A DNA stretch of 64,000 bases. It comes from an uncultured Alphaproteobacteria bacterium (GTDB taxonomy: Bacteria > Pseudomonadota > Alphaproteobacteria > UBA2966). Position numbers and translations under genes: made by a program. The stretch lies in NCBI GenBank assembly GCA_958295725.1, contig OY282368.1:806001-870000 (forward strand), in the 5' to 3' direction. The notes under the pieces were generated by a model. That model was not told the DNA's origin and made no database searches. It was given only the letters and a program-made list of their open reading frames with translations. Of this stretch, positions 48,880 to 56,681 are shown in pieces; within the stretch, counting starts at the first letter, position 1, and every line of letters starts with the position of its first letter.

Positions 48880-50223
48880 GTGCGACGCGACGACCGTGGC
48901 CTGGAACTGACGACGTCGAGCGCCGACGCCGCCGAGGCGCTGAGCCGCGCGGCGACGAGCCTTGTCGGCCACAGGCTGGACGCCATGGCGCACGTGAACG
49001 TGGCGCTGGACGCGGATCCCGGCTGCGTGCTGGCGCATGCCATGAAGGGTCTGCTCGTCGTCGGTGTCCGATTGCCCGGTCGCTATCCCGAGGCGCAAGC
49101 CGAGCTGGAGGCCGCGGAGACGGCGAGCGATCGCGCCAACGAGCGGGAAAAGGGCTATCTGGCGGCGCTCTCGGCCCTGATTCGCGGCCGCACGCTGGAC
49201 GCGGTAAGCCACTACGAAACGATCCTGGCGGCCTGTCCCCGCGACTTGCTGGCCCACCGACTGGTCCAGTTCGAGCTGTTCTGGATCGGCGAATCGACGT
49301 GGATGCGCGATATCGTCGAGCGCGCCGCGCCGGCGTGGTCCGCCGACGTGCCCGGCTTCGGCGCCTTTCAGGCGCTGCGCGCCTTCGGCTGCGAGGAGAA
49401 CGGATTCCACGCCGACGCCGAGCGCTACGGGCGCGATTCGGTGGAGCGCGATCCCGCGAACGGCTGGGGCGCGCACGCGGTCGCCCACGTCATGGAGATG
49501 CAGGGACGCGACGAGGACGGCATCGCCTGGCTCGACGGTCTCAAGGGCCACTGGTCGGAGCTCAACAACTTCGTGCATCACCTGTGGTGGCACCGAAGCC
49601 TGTTCCATCTGTCGCGAGGCGAGTTCGGCGCGGTCCTGGAGTTCTACGACCGCGAGGTCCGCGATCCCGAATCGCCGCTGATCGAGGCCAACCCCGGCCA
49701 CTACGGCGATTTCCAGAACGCCGTCGACCTGTTGAAGCGCCTGGACATGTACGGCTGCGACGTGGGCGACCGCTGGGAGGCGATAGCCGATCTCGCCGAG
49801 GACCGTATCGGCAATCACGCCGCGCCGCTCTCCAGCGGCCACGTCGCGACGGCCCTGGCGGCGGCGGGCCGCGATTCGGCCGTGGAAGCCTACCTGGCGG
49901 CGCTGCGCGGCTATGCGTCCACGGACGAGACCGACAACGCGGCCCGCGTCCGGTCGGCGGTCCTACCGGCGGCGGAAGGTGCCATCGCGCATCAGCGCGG
50001 CGACCACGAGGCGGCGCTGGGCCATCTGCTGCCGGCGCGGCGCGGCCTGTGGCGGATCGGCGGCAGTCACGCCCAGCGCGATCTGTTCACGCGGATCCTG
50101 GCCGATTCGGCGCGGCGCTTGGGGCGGAACGACGTCGTCGACATACTGCTGGAGGAGATGTCCCGGACCGGATTCGCGCGTCCCGCGGAGCGCCTTCGTC
50201 CTCCGGGCGTGGCGAAGCATTGA
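48880..50223 (+). CDS. TTC38-like tetratricopeptide protein
   Basis: A 447 aa all-helical protein with degenerate TPR units across its length. HAVAHVMEMQGRDEDGIAWL (near residue 200) and NNFVHHLWWHRSLFHLSRGE (near 228) are characteristic of the TTC38 family. The function of the family in bacteria is unclear. It is 22 bases downstream of the Rieske oxygenase and probably in its operon. Its 3' end overlaps the mcrC 3' end on the other strand by 137 bases. Confidence 0.85.
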   Translation: MRRDDRGLELTTSSADAAEALSRAATSLVGHRLDAMAHVNVALDADPGCVLAHAMKGLLVVGVRLPGRYPEAQAELEAAETASDRANEREKGYLAALSALIRGRTLDAVSHYETILAACPRDLLAHRLVQFELFWIGESTWMRDIVERAAPAWSADVPGFGAFQALRAFGCEENGFHADAERYGRDSVERDPANGWGAHAVAHVMEMQGRDEDGIAWLDGLKGHWSELNNFVHHLWWHRSLFHLSRGEFGAVLEFYDREVRDPESPLIEANPGHYGDFQNAVDLLKRLDMYGCDVGDRWEAIADLAEDRIGNHAAPLSSGHVATALAAAGRDSAVEAYLAALRGYASTDETDNAARVRSAVLPAAEGAIAHQRGDHEAALGHLLPARRGLWRIGGSHAQRDLFTRILADSARRLGRNDVVDILLEEMSRTGFARPAERLRPPGVAKH

Positions 50224-51607
50224 CGATCCGCGCCGCCGAATTCATCGGGCCACCGTTTCCGCGGATCCAGGTCGTCATTCCCCCGGCTTGACCAGAGGAA
50301 TGACGGCCTGAGGGGGTCGGGAGGGGGTGCCCGCCGGCGGCATGTCCCGGACCCGCGAGAAACCCGCGGAGAGCGCCCACGACCGTATCCGGGCGGCCCA
50401 CGTCGACGGTCGCGATGTCCAGGGGGCGTCCGGTCCCGCGCACCCTCCATTCGCCGACGATCCCTGGCTCGTCCATCCCGCGATGCCACGGGTAGACGAG
50501 AACGAGGCGCCCGGCGTCCCAGGCTTCGGCGTAGGCGAGCATCTGGTAGACGTCGGACTGCGCCACGCCGAGCGTCTCTTCGTCGGGGCGGAGTTCCTTC
50601 CACTTGGTGTCGAGAACGACGGCCCCCTCCGCTTTCTCGATCACCGCGTCGGGGCGCAAGGCGAACAGCCGGCGGCCGTCCGCGTCGGCCAGCGCGTGAC
50701 GTCCGCGGGCCTGGAGGCGGACTCGCACGGGCTGGCGTACAAGGGCGCGTCGCAGGCAGCGCCCGACGAACCTCTCGAACAGGTCGTTCATCGGGAACAG
50801 CAGGGCGAAGCCCGCCGCGCGGCCGCTCACCGTGCTCTGCCACTCCCCCTCCAGGAACAGGCGGGCGAGGCGGTGGAGATCGTGGAAGGCGGCGTTGGTC
50901 CGGTCGAGCCGCACGGGTTCGCGGAGCGGGTCGGGGCTGTCGCCCACGGACTCGAAGCGGGCGGTGAGCTCCGCTAGCAGCCGGGCATTGGCGGCGGTTC
51001 GCGCGAGGCGGGCGAGCCGCGACACCGCGGCCTTGAGGACGCGGTTGAGCGGCGTGTCCTCGGACAGCTCGTCGAAGCGGCAGGCGAGCCGATCCGGCCG
51101 GACGGCGAGATGCGTTATCTGGCGCGTGACGTGGAGCCTCCCGCGCAGCAGCCGCAGATCGTCTTCCCGCGCGACGTAGCGGCGGGGCAGGCCGCGCCGG
51201 ACCGCGGCCAGCAGCCGCTCGGCGAACAGCCGGACGAGGAGCTCCAGCAAGTCGCGCCGTTGCGTGTCCAGGGCGCCGAGATCGCCTTCGGCGATGCGGA
51301 GGTCGCACGCCACCGCCAGCATCCGGACGAGGGCCGCACGCACCGTGTCGTCCTTGCCGTCGATCTTGGGCAGGATCTCGACGGTCCGCCCCGGAACCGC
51401 GAGGATACCGACGATTTGCCCCGCCTTCAGGCCCCGGTGGGTGCGGGTCAGCACCGCGGTCCCGAGCCGCCGGGCGGCCCGCTCGGCGAGGGCGTGGAGC
51501 CGCCGGGCCTCGGCCTCGGTCAAGCCGCCTTCGCAGACCGGTAGATGGCCCCATTCCCGGCAGGTGAAGGACTCGGACGGCGGCCTATTCCGCTTCGGTT
51601 TCGGCAT
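50087..51607 (-). CDS. mcrC: McrC-like nuclease subunit of a McrBC system
   Basis: A 506 aa endonuclease subunit of a modification-dependent restriction system. The N-terminal domain (residues 1-170) is followed by a PD-(D/E)xK nuclease core: RPDAVIE then VVLDTKWKEL (near residues 320-340). From about residue 425 to the end the protein is Pro/Gly/Arg-rich and not like McrC. This tail reads over a strong extragenic hairpin and into the antisense of the TTC38-like gene, suggesting that the native stop was lost. ATG 51607 overlaps the mcrB stop by 23 bases. Confidence 0.85.
   Translation of the reverse strand: MPKPKRNRPPSESFTCREWGHLPVCEGGLTEAEARRLHALAERAARRLGTAVLTRTHRGLKAGQIVGILAVPGRTVEILPKIDGKDDTVRAALVRMLAVACDLRIAEGDLGALDTQRRDLLELLVRLFAERLLAAVRRGLPRRYVAREDDLRLLRGRLHVTRQITHLAVRPDRLACRFDELSEDTPLNRVLKAAVSRLARLARTAANARLLAELTARFESVGDSPDPLREPVRLDRTNAAFHDLHRLARLFLEGEWQSTVSGRAAGFALLFPMNDLFERFVGRCLRRALVRQPVRVRLQARGRHALADADGRRLFALRPDAVIEKAEGAVVLDTKWKELRPDEETLGVAQSDVYQMLAYAEAWDAGRLVLVYPWHRGMDEPGIVGEWRVRGTGRPLDIATVDVGRPDTVVGALRGFLAGPGHAAGGHPLPTPSGRHSSGQAGGMTTWIRGNGGPMNSAARIVNASPRPEDEGAPRDARIRSGTSPPAVCRRRRSAPSAAPNRPGSA
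50269..50309. repeat. 13-bp-stem palindrome of the GTCATTCC type
   Basis: The arms at 50269-50281 and 50297-50309 pair over 13 bp with one G-U wobble and a 15-base loop. This type of palindrome is common between genes in alphaproteobacteria. Here it falls inside the mcrC tail, just after the TTC38-like stop, and could serve as its terminator. Confidence 0.7.
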
Positions 51608-53435
51608 CCGGCGCCCTGCCCGAGACGAGGCGGTCGTAGGCGCCGGCCGCGAAACCGTCCCGCACCGTCGTCCAGCGGTAGCGCTCCTCGCCCGTGTCGT
51701 CGTCCAGGCCCGGCGGCGGGTCGAGCCGTTCCCTTCGCACGAAATCGTCGCCGCCGCCGAGGACGGCGCGGACCTTGTTCCAGTCGTCGTGAAAGTACTC
51801 GGCGATGAGCGGGATGATCTTGCGCCGCATGATGTGGTCGACGGCTTCCCTGTTCTTCGCTCCCATGAACCAGGCGTGACCGATCAGGTGATCGCGGTCG
51901 ATCAGGTATTCCAGACGCTTGTTGATGGCGCCGAGCACGGCGGGCAGGTCGATGCCGTCGACCGTATTCAGGAGATCGGGATCGGGCGACATTTCCTCGA
52001 GCTCGAAGCGGCGGCGGAGCGCGGTGTCGAGCAGGGCGATCGACCGGTCGGCGGTGTTCATCGTGCCGAGGATGTGGAGGTTCGCGGGCAGGGTGAAGGG
52101 GTCGTCGGAATAGGGCAGGGTGACGGCGGTTTCGTTCTCCGCGCCCTCCCGCTTGTCTTCCTCCAGCAGGGTGACGAGCTCTCCCATCACCTTCGAGACG
52201 TTGGCGCGGTTGATCTCGTCGATGACGAGGACGTGAGGCGGGCGGTCTTCGGACTTTCGGGCGCGTTTCGCGATGCGCTTGAGCACGCCGTCCTTCGCGG
52301 TGAGGCGAAAGCCCGCTCCCTCACCCGTCTCGGGGCGCAGGCCCTCGACGAACTCCTCGTAGCCGTAGGACTGATGGAAGGTGATGAACTCCACCCGACC
52401 TTCTTTGAGAAGCTCGCCGTAGCGGCGGTGGATATCGGCGTCCGATCGCTCTGCCGGCCCGTCGCAGATCTCGACGCAGAGCCGGGCGGTGGCGTAGGTC
52501 TTCCCGGTGCCCGGCGGGCCGTAGAGAATCGTGTTGAGGGAAAATTTGTTGGGAGGTGTCCCGTCGCCAGGAGTTTCGTCGAAATAGAAAAGCTCGTCGA
52601 ACGTGGTAGACGGGTACGATTTCTGCTTCCACAGATCCACGAGCGGTGGATCGTAGAAGTCGAGCTCGTGTCTCCTGTATTCCTTCTCCAGATTCTTGCG
52701 TATCTCATAAAGAGCTCGGTCGAGATCAATCGGAGGAATTGAGTCCTCGAATTGGAACTCACCCGGTAGCCGATGTTTCAACGCTTCGAATATCGATTGT
52801 TTGTGAGGCCCGCTCACGCTCCGTTCCAGATGATCGGGGAACAGGAAATACAGGATCGCGTGGCGTATCTGGCGCCAGACCGAATTGCCGGTTTCGTCGA
52901 GCCATGCGACGAAGCCCCAGGGCGGATCTTCCGCCATCAACTCGGATCGTCGAGGCTCTGACCTCCACCGTTCCAGCACCTGACAAAGATACCCCAGCTC
53001 CCGATAGCGGTACGTCATATATGCCCGTCCGGGATTCCCGACACCCTTGAGCGCCCGTTCTTTCAGGTAATCGCTGTCCGGGAGACTCGATCCGGACCAC
53101 TCCCAAACCAGTTTGATGGAGTTGAGCTTTGTCTCCGGTTTCATCGCTCGCGAATGCGGGTACAAGTACAGAAACCACAGGGCCTCCGCCGCCAATCTTT
53201 TGATTTGGGGGGGCGCAGGCTTCAATTGCTTCTCAAATATGTCGATGAACCTGTCCTTGCCTGGGACAGGGTCGTCGATGACGCGGCGCCTCAGTTCTCG
53301 AACGTTGTCGAGTGTCCACAGGTTTTCGTCGCCGAATAGCGAACCGTCGGCCATGAAACACCTGTCACGCCACGCCCCGGCGGCGGCGAGTACGTCGACG
53401 ATATGGTCGTTATCAGGACCGATCCAGCGAGCCAT
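51585..53435 (-). CDS. mcrB: McrB-like AAA+ GTPase
   Basis: A 616 aa motor and DNA-recognition subunit of McrBC. Walker A GPPGTGKTYA (near residue 308), Walker B HVLVIDEINRAN (near 402) and the McrB signature GTMNTADRS (near 450) are all present. The first 290 residues are an uncommon recognition domain unlike the E. coli McrB N-domain by eye. ATG 53435 has no strong ribosome site. With mcrC it would cut modified invading DNA; this assignment rests on the family. Confidence 0.9.
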   Translation of the reverse strand: MARWIGPDNDHIVDVLAAAGAWRDRCFMADGSLFGDENLWTLDNVRELRRRVIDDPVPGKDRFIDIFEKQLKPAPPQIKRLAAEALWFLYLYPHSRAMKPETKLNSIKLVWEWSGSSLPDSDYLKERALKGVGNPGRAYMTYRYRELGYLCQVLERWRSEPRRSELMAEDPPWGFVAWLDETGNSVWRQIRHAILYFLFPDHLERSVSGPHKQSIFEALKHRLPGEFQFEDSIPPIDLDRALYEIRKNLEKEYRRHELDFYDPPLVDLWKQKSYPSTTFDELFYFDETPGDGTPPNKFSLNTILYGPPGTGKTYATARLCVEICDGPAERSDADIHRRYGELLKEGRVEFITFHQSYGYEEFVEGLRPETGEGAGFRLTAKDGVLKRIAKRARKSEDRPPHVLVIDEINRANVSKVMGELVTLLEEDKREGAENETAVTLPYSDDPFTLPANLHILGTMNTADRSIALLDTALRRRFELEEMSPDPDLLNTVDGIDLPAVLGAINKRLEYLIDRDHLIGHAWFMGAKNREAVDHIMRRKIIPLIAEYFHDDWNKVRAVLGGGDDFVRRERLDPPPGLDDDTGEERYRWTTVRDGFAAGAYDRLVSGRAPDAETEAE

Positions 53436-53556: not shown

Positions 53557-53654
53557 TCATTGTCTTGGTTCGCTACACGCGGGACGTCGAGAACTCGTCG
53601 GCCGCGCGGTCGGTGGAGTGCCGAGCCGGGGTTCATCCGCCGGATCCGTTCATA

Positions 53655-53680
53655 CTTCTCCCCCTTGGTCAGGGGGGAAG
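53655..53680. terminator. G/C-rich hairpin
   Basis: CCCCCT and AGGGGG arms, extended with one wobble and one bulge, around a TGGTC loop. It may be a terminator or a dispersed palindromic repeat. Confidence 0.3.
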
Positions 53681-53819
53681 TCGGGAGGGGGGGCCATAGT
53701 CCCGCGACTCGGCGAGGATCGCCTCTACAACTCCCTCGACGATACCATATATCGATATTCATGACACAGGAAATACAACATATAGTGGTTCGATCTGGAA
53801 TGCTCCGCAGGGTCCGACG

Positions 53820-54345
53820 GTGTGCGGATTGTGCGGATCGCCGCGCCGGGTTCGACCCTCGAAGGGTGTGCGGATTGTGCGGATCGCCGCGCCGGGTTCG
53901 ACCCCCGAAGGGTGTGCGGATTGTGCGGATCGCCACGCCGGGCTCGACCCCCGGAGAGTGTGCGGATCGTGCGGATCGCCGCGCCGGGTTCGACCCCCGG
54001 AGGGTGTGCGGATCGTGCGGATCGCCGCGCCGGGCTCGACCCCCGGAGGGTGTGCGGATCGTGCGGATCGCCGCGCCGGGTTCGACCCCCGGAGGGTGTG
54101 CGGATCGTGCGGATCGCCACGCCGGGCTCGACCCCCGGAGGGTGTGCGGATCGTGCGGATCGCCGCGCCGGGTTCGACCCCCGGAGGGTGTGCGGATTGT
54201 GCGGATCGCCGCGCCGGGCTCGACCCCCGGAGGGTGTGCGGATTGTGCGGATCGCCACGCCGGGTTCGACCCTCGAAGGGTGTGCGGATTGTGCGGATCG
54301 CCACGCCGGGTTCGACCCCCGGAGAGTGTGCGGATCGTGCGGATC
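53820..54345. repeat. 46-bp tandem repeat array, 11 full copies plus a partial one
   Basis: Full units start at 53820, 53866, 53912, 53958, 54004, 54050, 54096, 54142, 54188, 54234 and 54280, then a 20-base partial. Each begins GTGTGCGGAT-T/C-GTGCGGATC and contains a CCGGG/CCCGG stem around a TTCGACC-type loop. Only about six positions vary (T/C, G/A). Because 46 is not a multiple of 3 and the unit lacks stops, long false open frames appear in several frames on both strands. There are no unique spacers, so it is not CRISPR. Confidence 0.95.
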
Positions 54346-54404
54346 CGCCGACCGGCGGTCAAGTCACGGTACGGGACGATTTTCCCCATCGCGGAATTTT
54401 CCGC

Positions 54405-54437
54405 TTGACTCGCCCCACAATTGTTCCTATATTGTTC
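54405..54437 (+). promoter_or_regulatory. LexA box overlapping a sigma-70 promoter
   Basis: TTGACT (54405-54410), a 17-base spacer and TATATT (54428-54433) form a good promoter. GTTC (54423-54426), 7 bases and GTTC (54434-54437) match the alphaproteobacterial LexA operator and cover the -10. This is the layout of an SOS promoter. No intact plus-strand gene follows; the next 270 bases are the antisense of a GST fragment. Confidence 0.6.
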
Positions 54438-54461
54438 TCGGAACGGGACGACGAATCCGGT

Positions 54462-54728
54462 TCAGAAGTCGGGAACGGTGTCGGCGAAGGCGGGGAGCGC
54501 GTCGCAGGCGGCGGAGAGCGCATCGAGGTTGGGATAGCGCCCCTCGGGCATGAGCTCGGGGCAGGTCAGGGCGATGTGGCCGCAGAGGACTCCCAGGGTG
54601 ACGTCGGCCTGGGTGATGGCGGTCCCGGCGAGCCACGGCCCCGGCTCGAACCTGTCGAGCTCGGCGAGGCCCGCCGCCGCCTGATTCTCGCAGCGGTCGA
54701 TCCAGGCCCGTTCGACGTACCCGTCGGG
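54462..54728 (-). pseudogene. 3' fragment of a glutathione S-transferase gene
   Basis: The minus frame ending at TGA 54464-54462 reads GYVERAWIDRCENQAAAGL, then WLAGTAITQADVTLGVL, GRYPNLDALSAACDALPAFA. This is the C-terminal helical domain of a GST. The N-terminal thioredoxin domain is missing; upstream sequence belongs to a different, AT-richer gene in another frame. Confidence 0.8.
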
Positions 54729-55066
54729 TCGGCGTCGCGTCCGCCGGTCTCGCCGTTGTCGGCAGTTCTAGTATCAGACGCCGATGTTATAGGGCTCATG
54801 GAATTATTTTCTTCAGCTGGCGTATCATCTGGATTGAGTATCTCGATTCGTGTCGTCTGCCTGTCTGTGACAGGATCATTTTCTACCGTCTTTATGACCT
54901 GAAACCCCTTCTTTTTTACCTGCTTCAGGAGGTTGATCCTTGTTTCCCCGTCCTTAAGCCTAAATTCCCGACGTATATCCCCATACGTGGCTCCCCCAGG
55001 GCGAGCGTAGAGAGCCGCTACTTCCGAGCGTTGCGTCCCTACCGTGAACCCGAACTTGTCTTTCAT
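54566..55066 (-). CDS. small winged-helix-like protein fused at its end to out-of-frame GST sequence
   Basis: From ATG 55066 the first ~85 residues (MKDKFGFTVGTQRSEVAALY, GGATYGDIRREFRLKDGE, INLLKQVKKKGFQVIKT) look like a small DNA-binding winged helix. A polar Ser/Thr/Asp-rich stretch follows. After about residue 115 the frame enters the GST fragment in the wrong frame and ends after 166 residues. The first part is less GC-rich than its surroundings, so it is probably acquired. The original stop has probably been lost at the junction near 54730. Family unknown. Confidence 0.55.
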   Translation of the reverse strand: MKDKFGFTVGTQRSEVAALYARPGGATYGDIRREFRLKDGETRINLLKQVKKKGFQVIKTVENDPVTDRQTTRIEILNPDDTPAEENNSMSPITSASDTRTADNGETGGRDADPTGTSNGPGSTAARIRRRRASPSSTGSSRGRGSPGPPSPRPTSPWESSAATSP

Positions 55067-55209
55067 CCCGCGCCCCACCGCTTGCTACCTGTTGGTCACA
55101 CCGTCGCCAGCGCAAGCTTCTGACTCGCCGCGCCAAAGGGGCCGCCATCCACGTGCGCATCGCCGACGCGGGTCGCCGGTCCGCCCTCCGTCGAGGCCGA
55201 TCCGCCTCC

Positions 55210-56595
55210 TTACCCCCGGTGCCTGGCTTCGATCTTCTTGATCTCGCCGACGATCCAGTCGACGCGTTCGTTGCCGTCGTACCGGTCGCTGCCTTCGATG
55301 ACGGCGGCGGCGATCTCCTCGCCCACCGTGGTCAGGAGGTCCCAATCCTCGTCCGAACCGGCGCGCCGGGCGACGTTGATCACCGAATCCTGGGCCAGGA
55401 CCTTTCTGACGCCTGGCGCCTCCCCGTCGCCCCTGGCCGGCTCCGGCCACGCCGCCGGCACGTCGCCCTCGAGGATCTCGCGCAACTGCCGGCGCATCAT
55501 GACGACGCCGGTGTCGGTCGTTCCCTTGTGCTCGATGGCGGGACGCGGCACGCCGTACCAGATGCTGCCCTGCGCTTCGAAGTCCCCGGCCTTGCGCTGC
55601 GCCGCCTCGTAGGAGGGACGCCGGGTCTGGCCGTCGACGTCCGTCAGGTTCCAGCCGTTGCGGGTGTGATCGGGGCCGATGACGCGGTCCGTGCCGTAAG
55701 CCCGCCAGCCGAACAGGATCGACCGCCGGTCGTCGACGGGAATGTGCTGACGAAGGTAGATCGCCGCGTTGTAGTAGGTCGGCTTGGGCAACTCGATGGT
55801 CGTCGGCACGTAGCTCTCGAAGGGCATGTGACAGTAGTTCATGCGCGCCCAGATCCAGTCGTCGTCGAGACGGCGCACGGACATGTAGACCATGCCGCTG
55901 CCCGCGCCCGTGATCCGCCACTCGATGTTGGGGCGCAGGCCGATCGACGGGTTCTGGAAGTGCTGGCCGTCGGTGCCGTGCAGGAACACGGCATGGAACG
56001 GGTCCATGGAGTTTTCCTGCGAGTTCAGCCAGTTGCTCTTGTAGGGCAGGGCGAAGGGGATGAGCTTGACGCCCGGCATCTCGAAGAAGTCGAGGCGCGG
56101 CTTGTCCGGGATCAGGTCGGGCGGGCCCATGTAGGCCCAGACCATGCCGTGGATCTCGGTCGCCGGATAGGCGCCGTGAAACAGGCCGTCCTTCAGCTTC
56201 GAGTCCGACGGCTCGCCCGGCGTTTCCAGGATGGTGCCGTCGACGTCGAAAAGCCAGCCGTGATAGCAGCAGCGGATGCCCCGCTCCGAGACGATGCCGT
56301 ACTCCAGCGACGTGCCGCGATGGCTGCAATGCCGGTGCAGAACGCCGGCCCGGCCGGACTTGTCCCGGAAGGCGACGAGGTCCTCGCCGAGCGTCTTCAC
56401 CGCCTTGGGCAGGTCGCCGAGGTGGTCCGACAGGCAGACGGGCAGCCAGAAGCGCCGGAAATACTCACCCATCGGCGTACCCGGCCCGGTCTCCGTCAGC
56501 AGGGCGTCGGGTTCCGTGATCTCCCGCGAATGATAGCCGCTGAACGGCTTCTTCCGGAGTTCGCGCCGGCTGGAGTCGATTTCCACGACGGTCAT
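55210..56595 (-). CDS. Rieske non-heme iron oxygenase, alpha subunit (second copy)
   Basis: A 461 aa paralogue of the enzyme at 47442. Rieske ligands HCSHRG and CCYHGW lie near residues 88-107; the catalytic iron motif is in NSMDPFHAVFLH (near residue 194). The N-terminal TETGPGTPMGEYFRRFW matches the first copy in position. ATG 56595 has GGGGAGG upstream. No ferredoxin reductase gene is adjacent. tRNA-Val lies 86 bases upstream on the same strand. Confidence 0.9.
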   Translation of the reverse strand: MTVVEIDSSRRELRKKPFSGYHSREITEPDALLTETGPGTPMGEYFRRFWLPVCLSDHLGDLPKAVKTLGEDLVAFRDKSGRAGVLHRHCSHRGTSLEYGIVSERGIRCCYHGWLFDVDGTILETPGEPSDSKLKDGLFHGAYPATEIHGMVWAYMGPPDLIPDKPRLDFFEMPGVKLIPFALPYKSNWLNSQENSMDPFHAVFLHGTDGQHFQNPSIGLRPNIEWRITGAGSGMVYMSVRRLDDDWIWARMNYCHMPFESYVPTTIELPKPTYYNAAIYLRQHIPVDDRRSILFGWRAYGTDRVIGPDHTRNGWNLTDVDGQTRRPSYEAAQRKAGDFEAQGSIWYGVPRPAIEHKGTTDTGVVMMRRQLREILEGDVPAAWPEPARGDGEAPGVRKVLAQDSVINVARRAGSDEDWDLLTTVGEEIAAAVIEGSDRYDGNERVDWIVGEIKKIEARHRG

Positions 56596-56681
56596 CTCGT
56601 TCGCCTCCCCCCCTGTCGCGTCGCCCGGACCGTGGCCGCGATCCCGGCACACGCCCGGCGAATCGGGTTGAACCGGGAAAG

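Follow-up and report, generated by a model that had tools for sequence, protein, structure and literature searches.

The published LexA motif of the Alphaproteobacteria is the direct repeat GTTC-N7-GTTC (PMC8565304). In another direction, putative mobile promoters have been described under the term 'promoter propagation' (Matus-Garcia et al., 2012; van Passel et al., 2014; both as cited in PMC8049555), and the transposon Tn5/IS50 carries a weak LexA site in the promoter of its transposase (PMC4265352). Dispersed promoters and a transposon promoter with a LexA site are thus each known separately, as presented in these last two sources. In the literature on LexA sites in dispersed repeats we found nothing closer than Tn5, and a search that was thin in subscription papers did not turn up a description of a LexA-type dispersed promoter combined with a TerS-like gene and tandem arrays. 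The locus considered here, in a 64,000-nucleotide stretch of genomic DNA (the window), probably belongs to just such an arrangement: its sequence points to an SOS-regulated repeat family that has expanded in one species and is represented in the window by a gene-less copy.

The original prediction, namely a TTGACT-N17-TATATT promoter with GTTC-N7-GTTC over its -10 element and no gene behind it, is borne out in these particulars (Table 1). The + strand at 54405-54437 reads, in order, TTGACT, CGCCCCACAATTGTTCC, TATATT and GTTC, and a search for + strand gene starts downstream found none, the only feature there being an antisense fragment of a GST gene. Accordingly, a host SOS promoter standing at its native place was rejected, no SOS gene being directly downstream. 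The promoter matches the sigma-70 consensus at 10 of 12 positions; the 12-base pattern has one perfect match in the window, where 0.38 would be expected at up to two mismatches, and TTGAC-N13-GTTC-N7-GTTC likewise occurs once with no mismatch (1.18 expected at up to two).

Table 1. Coordinates of the promoter, the repeat copy and the adjoining GST fragment, in window positions.
Feature	Position	Strand	Basis or remark
Sigma-70-type promoter TTGACT-N17-TATATT	54405..54433	+	sequence; sole exact match in window
-35 element TTGACT	54405-54410	+	sequence; 17-nt spacer to -10
-10 element TATATT	54428-54433	+	sequence
LexA-type direct-repeat box GTTCCTATATTGTTC over -10	54423..54437	+	same or nearly the same box in the genome's 15 copies
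Weak terminator-like hairpin	54860..54874	+	sole candidate 3' end found for the promoter's transcript; no better than chance expectation
Whole repeat element, gene-less 'B' type	53559..54455 (about)	+	copies aligned in pairs; left and right ends examined in five of them
Tandem array, period 46 bp, 11.5 copies, unit GGTGTGCGGATCGTGCGGATCGCCGCGCCGGGTTCGACCCCCGGAG	53819..54350	+	TRF
3' fragment of GST gene, convergent with promoter	54462..54735	-	about 95% identity to intact locus

The genome has the regulator to which such a box would answer: a lexA gene (at 2619906 of G000:C1, a contig of this genome) with a LexA_DNA_bind match of 1.8e-14 and a Peptidase_S24 domain, itself preceded by the box GAACCAAACTAGAAC. 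The window has the arrangement that marks alphaproteobacterial LexA-regulated promoters, a GTTC-N7-GTTC repeat at a sigma-70 promoter, and its resemblance to the boxes of established SOS genes goes further. The recA box of this genome, GTACCCATTTTGTTC when read in the GTTC orientation, differs at three positions from the window box and at two from another form found in the family, GTTCCCATATTGTTC; recA boxes of the form GAAC-N7-GTAC are kept in most of the relatives examined. In two genomes of the same order (G008 and G009) dinB, recognised by eye, has the architecture TTGAC..GTTCCCTTTATGTTC, and the identical box GTTCCCTTTATGTTC stands at a DUF5131 gene in the present genome. Against a profile built from only 12 sites, namely recA, dinB, lexA and DUF5131 boxes, the two commonest repeat boxes, with the inner bases CTATATT (the window copy) and CCATATT, rank among the best-scoring 0.6-1.1% of random sequence, so that the likeness to the LexA boxes of the clade extends beyond the GTTC halves in these forms; it is weaker for the copies with CCACATT or TCACATT, whose scores are only moderate (5-6% of random sequence).

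The direct repeat by itself is less telling. The window contains GTTC-N7-GTTC alone about as often as chance predicts (3 sites against 2.45 expected), and the motif is common genome-wide, with 149 sites. This abundance, and the circumstance that TATATT alone accounts for part of the box, lend some support to the alternative of a strong constitutive promoter carried by the repeat, whose box would be a -10 element coincidentally flanked by GTTC. Several aspects of the copies nevertheless make this rather improbable. Neither GTTC half overlaps the -10 hexamer, and both have stayed constant despite divergence of the spacer: subfamilies A and B show 40% identity in the spacer but 100% in the -35 element and the two GTTC halves, a figure biased by the choice of copies by pattern. 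Both halves are kept in 8 of 9 promoter-end copies found by homology rather than by the box and in all six copies found via the TerS homology, though, the copies being related, agreement between close ones says little. The copy at 2392504 retains both GTTC halves beside a poor -10 (TGTATC), and the inner bases of the box resemble those of real LexA boxes. Given its nearness to the recA box, the dinB-like architecture in the same order and the retention of both GTTC halves across diverged spacers, the window box is very probably of the LexA type. The SOS-type character originally predicted for the promoter is thereby upheld, by the same dinB architecture and the close recA box.

The same cannot be said of its supposed uniqueness as an 'orphan', for the window promoter belongs to a set of 15 repeat copies. 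The pattern TTGAC-N11..15-GTTC-N7-GTTC has 15 sites in this genome and none in a reversed control, and all 15 form one family with homology extending beyond the box. Each of 14 relatives has 0-1 sites of the same -35/box pattern, and among 385 genomes of the class, the 384 others have at most four promoters each. The repeat element itself was searched for in the 14 relatives and not found. Near-identical copies at unrelated places and their absence from relatives are as expected of a mobile promoter or dispersed repeat, and of all the genomes searched, only those of this species contained the family. A phage origin of the promoter was rejected, since viral contigs gave no matches to the promoter pattern and no relative of the TerS-like protein.

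The window promoter forms the right-hand end of a gene-less element with a sharp left end at ATTGTC, a border common to five copies with differing flanks, and a right end near ACGGGACGACG. Judged together with the other copies, a complete family member probably consists of a tandem array of 46- or about 116-bp units, the sigma-70 promoter with its LexA-type box, a 5' leader and a gene for a TerS-like helix-turn-helix protein; several copies are remnants with no recognisable gene of their own behind the promoter. We rejected an insertion sequence or transposon: no transposase gene was recognisable within the window element, and no terminal inverted repeats or target-site duplications were recognised by eye at the borders of the five copies. 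At the left border of two other copies (L021 and L028) the element begins within an earlier copy of the same element that is interrupted at GGTCAAGTC, a pattern suggestive of nested insertions at a favoured site. L028, at about 2283 kb, also has a second, inverted box-like stretch, CCGGTTCGGGAACAATATGAGAC, tens of bases past the promoter. In the window, the element is adjoined by genes for McrC-like and AAA_5 (McrB-like) proteins, a restriction pair of the McrBC type (50087-53435).

In six copies the promoter is followed by the TerS-like gene, with the ATG invariably 41 nt from the start of the box. Its product matches the Pfam family Sf6_terminase (PF20901) at 5.1e-7, above the cut-off, and the terminase small subunit family PHROG 4044 (phrog_4044) at 4.8e-39; it also has weak helix-turn-helix matches and, in most copies, an acidic, repetitive C-terminal tail. 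The named relatives of the protein belong to the Sphingomonadales or their kin. In the TerS domain dN is lower than dS in every pair of copies. No gene for a terminase large subunit was seen beside the copies inspected, whose flanks are unrelated genes; in several relatives a terL-like ORF, identified by eye, directly follows TerS.

In phages, the terminase small subunit binds sites close to its own gene. The direct repeat might, then, be the operator of the element's own TerS-like protein, its likeness to a LexA box being convergent, a proposal also favoured by the position of the box at the promoter of the gene in six copies and by the helix-turn-helix matches. We regard it as unlikely. The box has the same spacing as, and a sequence similar to, the recA, dinB and DUF5131 boxes of the clade; the copy in front of rnhB, described below, has the promoter without a TerS gene; and the array, with its repeated GTGTGCGGATTGTGC, would seem a more natural site for a TerS-like protein. 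That such a box is common to TerS genes in general was rejected: it was missing in front of the more distantly related TerS genes that were inspected, and the one decayed TerS-like gene of the sister species G001 also lacks it, so that gene and box do not always go together.

The original prediction had offered two accounts of the site, a deleted SOS gene or an RNA driven across the GST remnant. The deletion account, in which a host SOS gene once stood here and left its promoter behind, draws on the architecture seen at dinB in G008 and G009 and on the lack of a gene after the window promoter. It is nonetheless highly improbable, in view of the 15 homologous promoters in the genome, the continuity of the promoter with the repeat element and its array, the failure to find the element in the 14 relatives, and the surroundings of the promoter. 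The element end together with about 270 bp of the GST 3' end matches a second locus, at about 950 kb of G000:C1, with about 95% identity; there the GST gene is intact, with GST Pfam domains, and is faced by the promoter in the same way as in the window. The recurrence of this junction beside an intact gene indicates that the window fragment, whose end lies at 54462 and whose break is near 54735, is part of a segmental copy, and since the window promoter lies within the copied block, no host SOS gene need have stood here. The gene that is missing behind the promoter is the repeat's own TerS-like gene. The neighbouring Rieske gene was the only gene common to both in a comparison of synteny with the relative G002; this Rieske-type oxygenase (55210-56652) has 30 matches in the genome and 60-67 in two relatives of the genus. 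The - strand at 54740-55078 carries the beginning of a short ORF (MGRGMKDKFGFTVGTQRSEV...), which continues into the GST fragment; no family matched it above the cut-off.

Antisense transcription from the window promoter is possible. The stronger proposal, a living antisense or small-RNA promoter that drives a damage-induced RNA across the GST end and is under selection, would find encouragement in the near-consensus promoter, in the intact GST gene faced by the same promoter at the 950-kb locus and in the terminator-like hairpin at 54860. We consider it quite improbable: the target in the window is merely a GST fragment, the hairpin is of chance quality, and copying alone accounts for the arrangement.

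Two other copies show the promoter ahead of enzyme-coding genes. At G000:C1:1679988-1680019 (L019/L079) an SOS-type promoter unit of about 113 bp stands in front of rnhB, whose product matches RNase HII in Pfam at 1.2e-41. In the relative G002, rnhB lacks the promoter: other sequence takes the place of the unit, and the upstream region and N-terminus differ, implying either acquisition of the promoter in this lineage or its loss from that of G002. At L018 (G000:C1:1486400-1490400) a 9.5-copy array of 116-bp units precedes a shortened TerS-like gene under the promoter, followed in the same direction by a gene for an HD-domain dGTPase-like protein.

Returning to the LexA-controlled repeat family, we envisage that LexA would repress the repeat-borne promoters and that its cleavage upon DNA damage would activate the whole set at once. 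The TerS-like protein would then be made from six copies, one of them truncated and with the dGTPase-like gene following in the same direction, and another copy would drive rnhB, while the gene-less copies, that of the window included, would yield no more than an RNA antisense to the sequence behind them. A more speculative extension, which we hold to be doubtful, is that the family has rewired the SOS regulon of the species, with 15 copies firing at once, TerS-like proteins acting on the tandem arrays, possibly as a means of spread, and rnhB and the dGTPase-like gene placed under SOS control. If LexA does bind, a selfish or domesticated repeat would have multiplied consensus-spaced LexA-type promoters beyond the numbers in the 384 other genomes of the class and placed additional genes under the control of DNA damage, which would be a naturally occurring example of a regulon rewired by dispersed promoters. 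More generally, 'orphan' regulatory sites should be checked for membership in a repeat before a lost gene is assumed.

Set against the described systems, the family resembles each in some features and differs in others. With the terminase small subunits of phages and gene transfer agents (GTA) it shares a sequence family (Sf6_terminase, PHROG 4044), the gene being present in six copies; here, however, it is multicopy, has the acidic repetitive tail and lacks a neighbouring terL in the copies inspected. Like Tn5/IS50 (PMC4265352), it is a repeat element with a LexA site in its promoter, of LexA type by sequence in the present case, but no transposase or terminal repeats were found and its gene is TerS-like. 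As with the putative mobile promoters in the account given by PMC8049555, many copies of one promoter stand before different genes, and at rnhB a unit of about 113 bp occupies a place where G002 has other sequence; most copies here, in contrast, lie in a larger element with a tandem array, a gene and a LexA-type box. Finally, it has in common with the alphaproteobacterial LexA promoters of recA, lexA and dinB a TTGAC promoter whose -10 is covered by this direct-repeat box, the recA box of this genome being 2-3 bases off the commonest family forms, but deploys the box on a dispersed repeat, in 15 copies, mostly before non-SOS genes or none.
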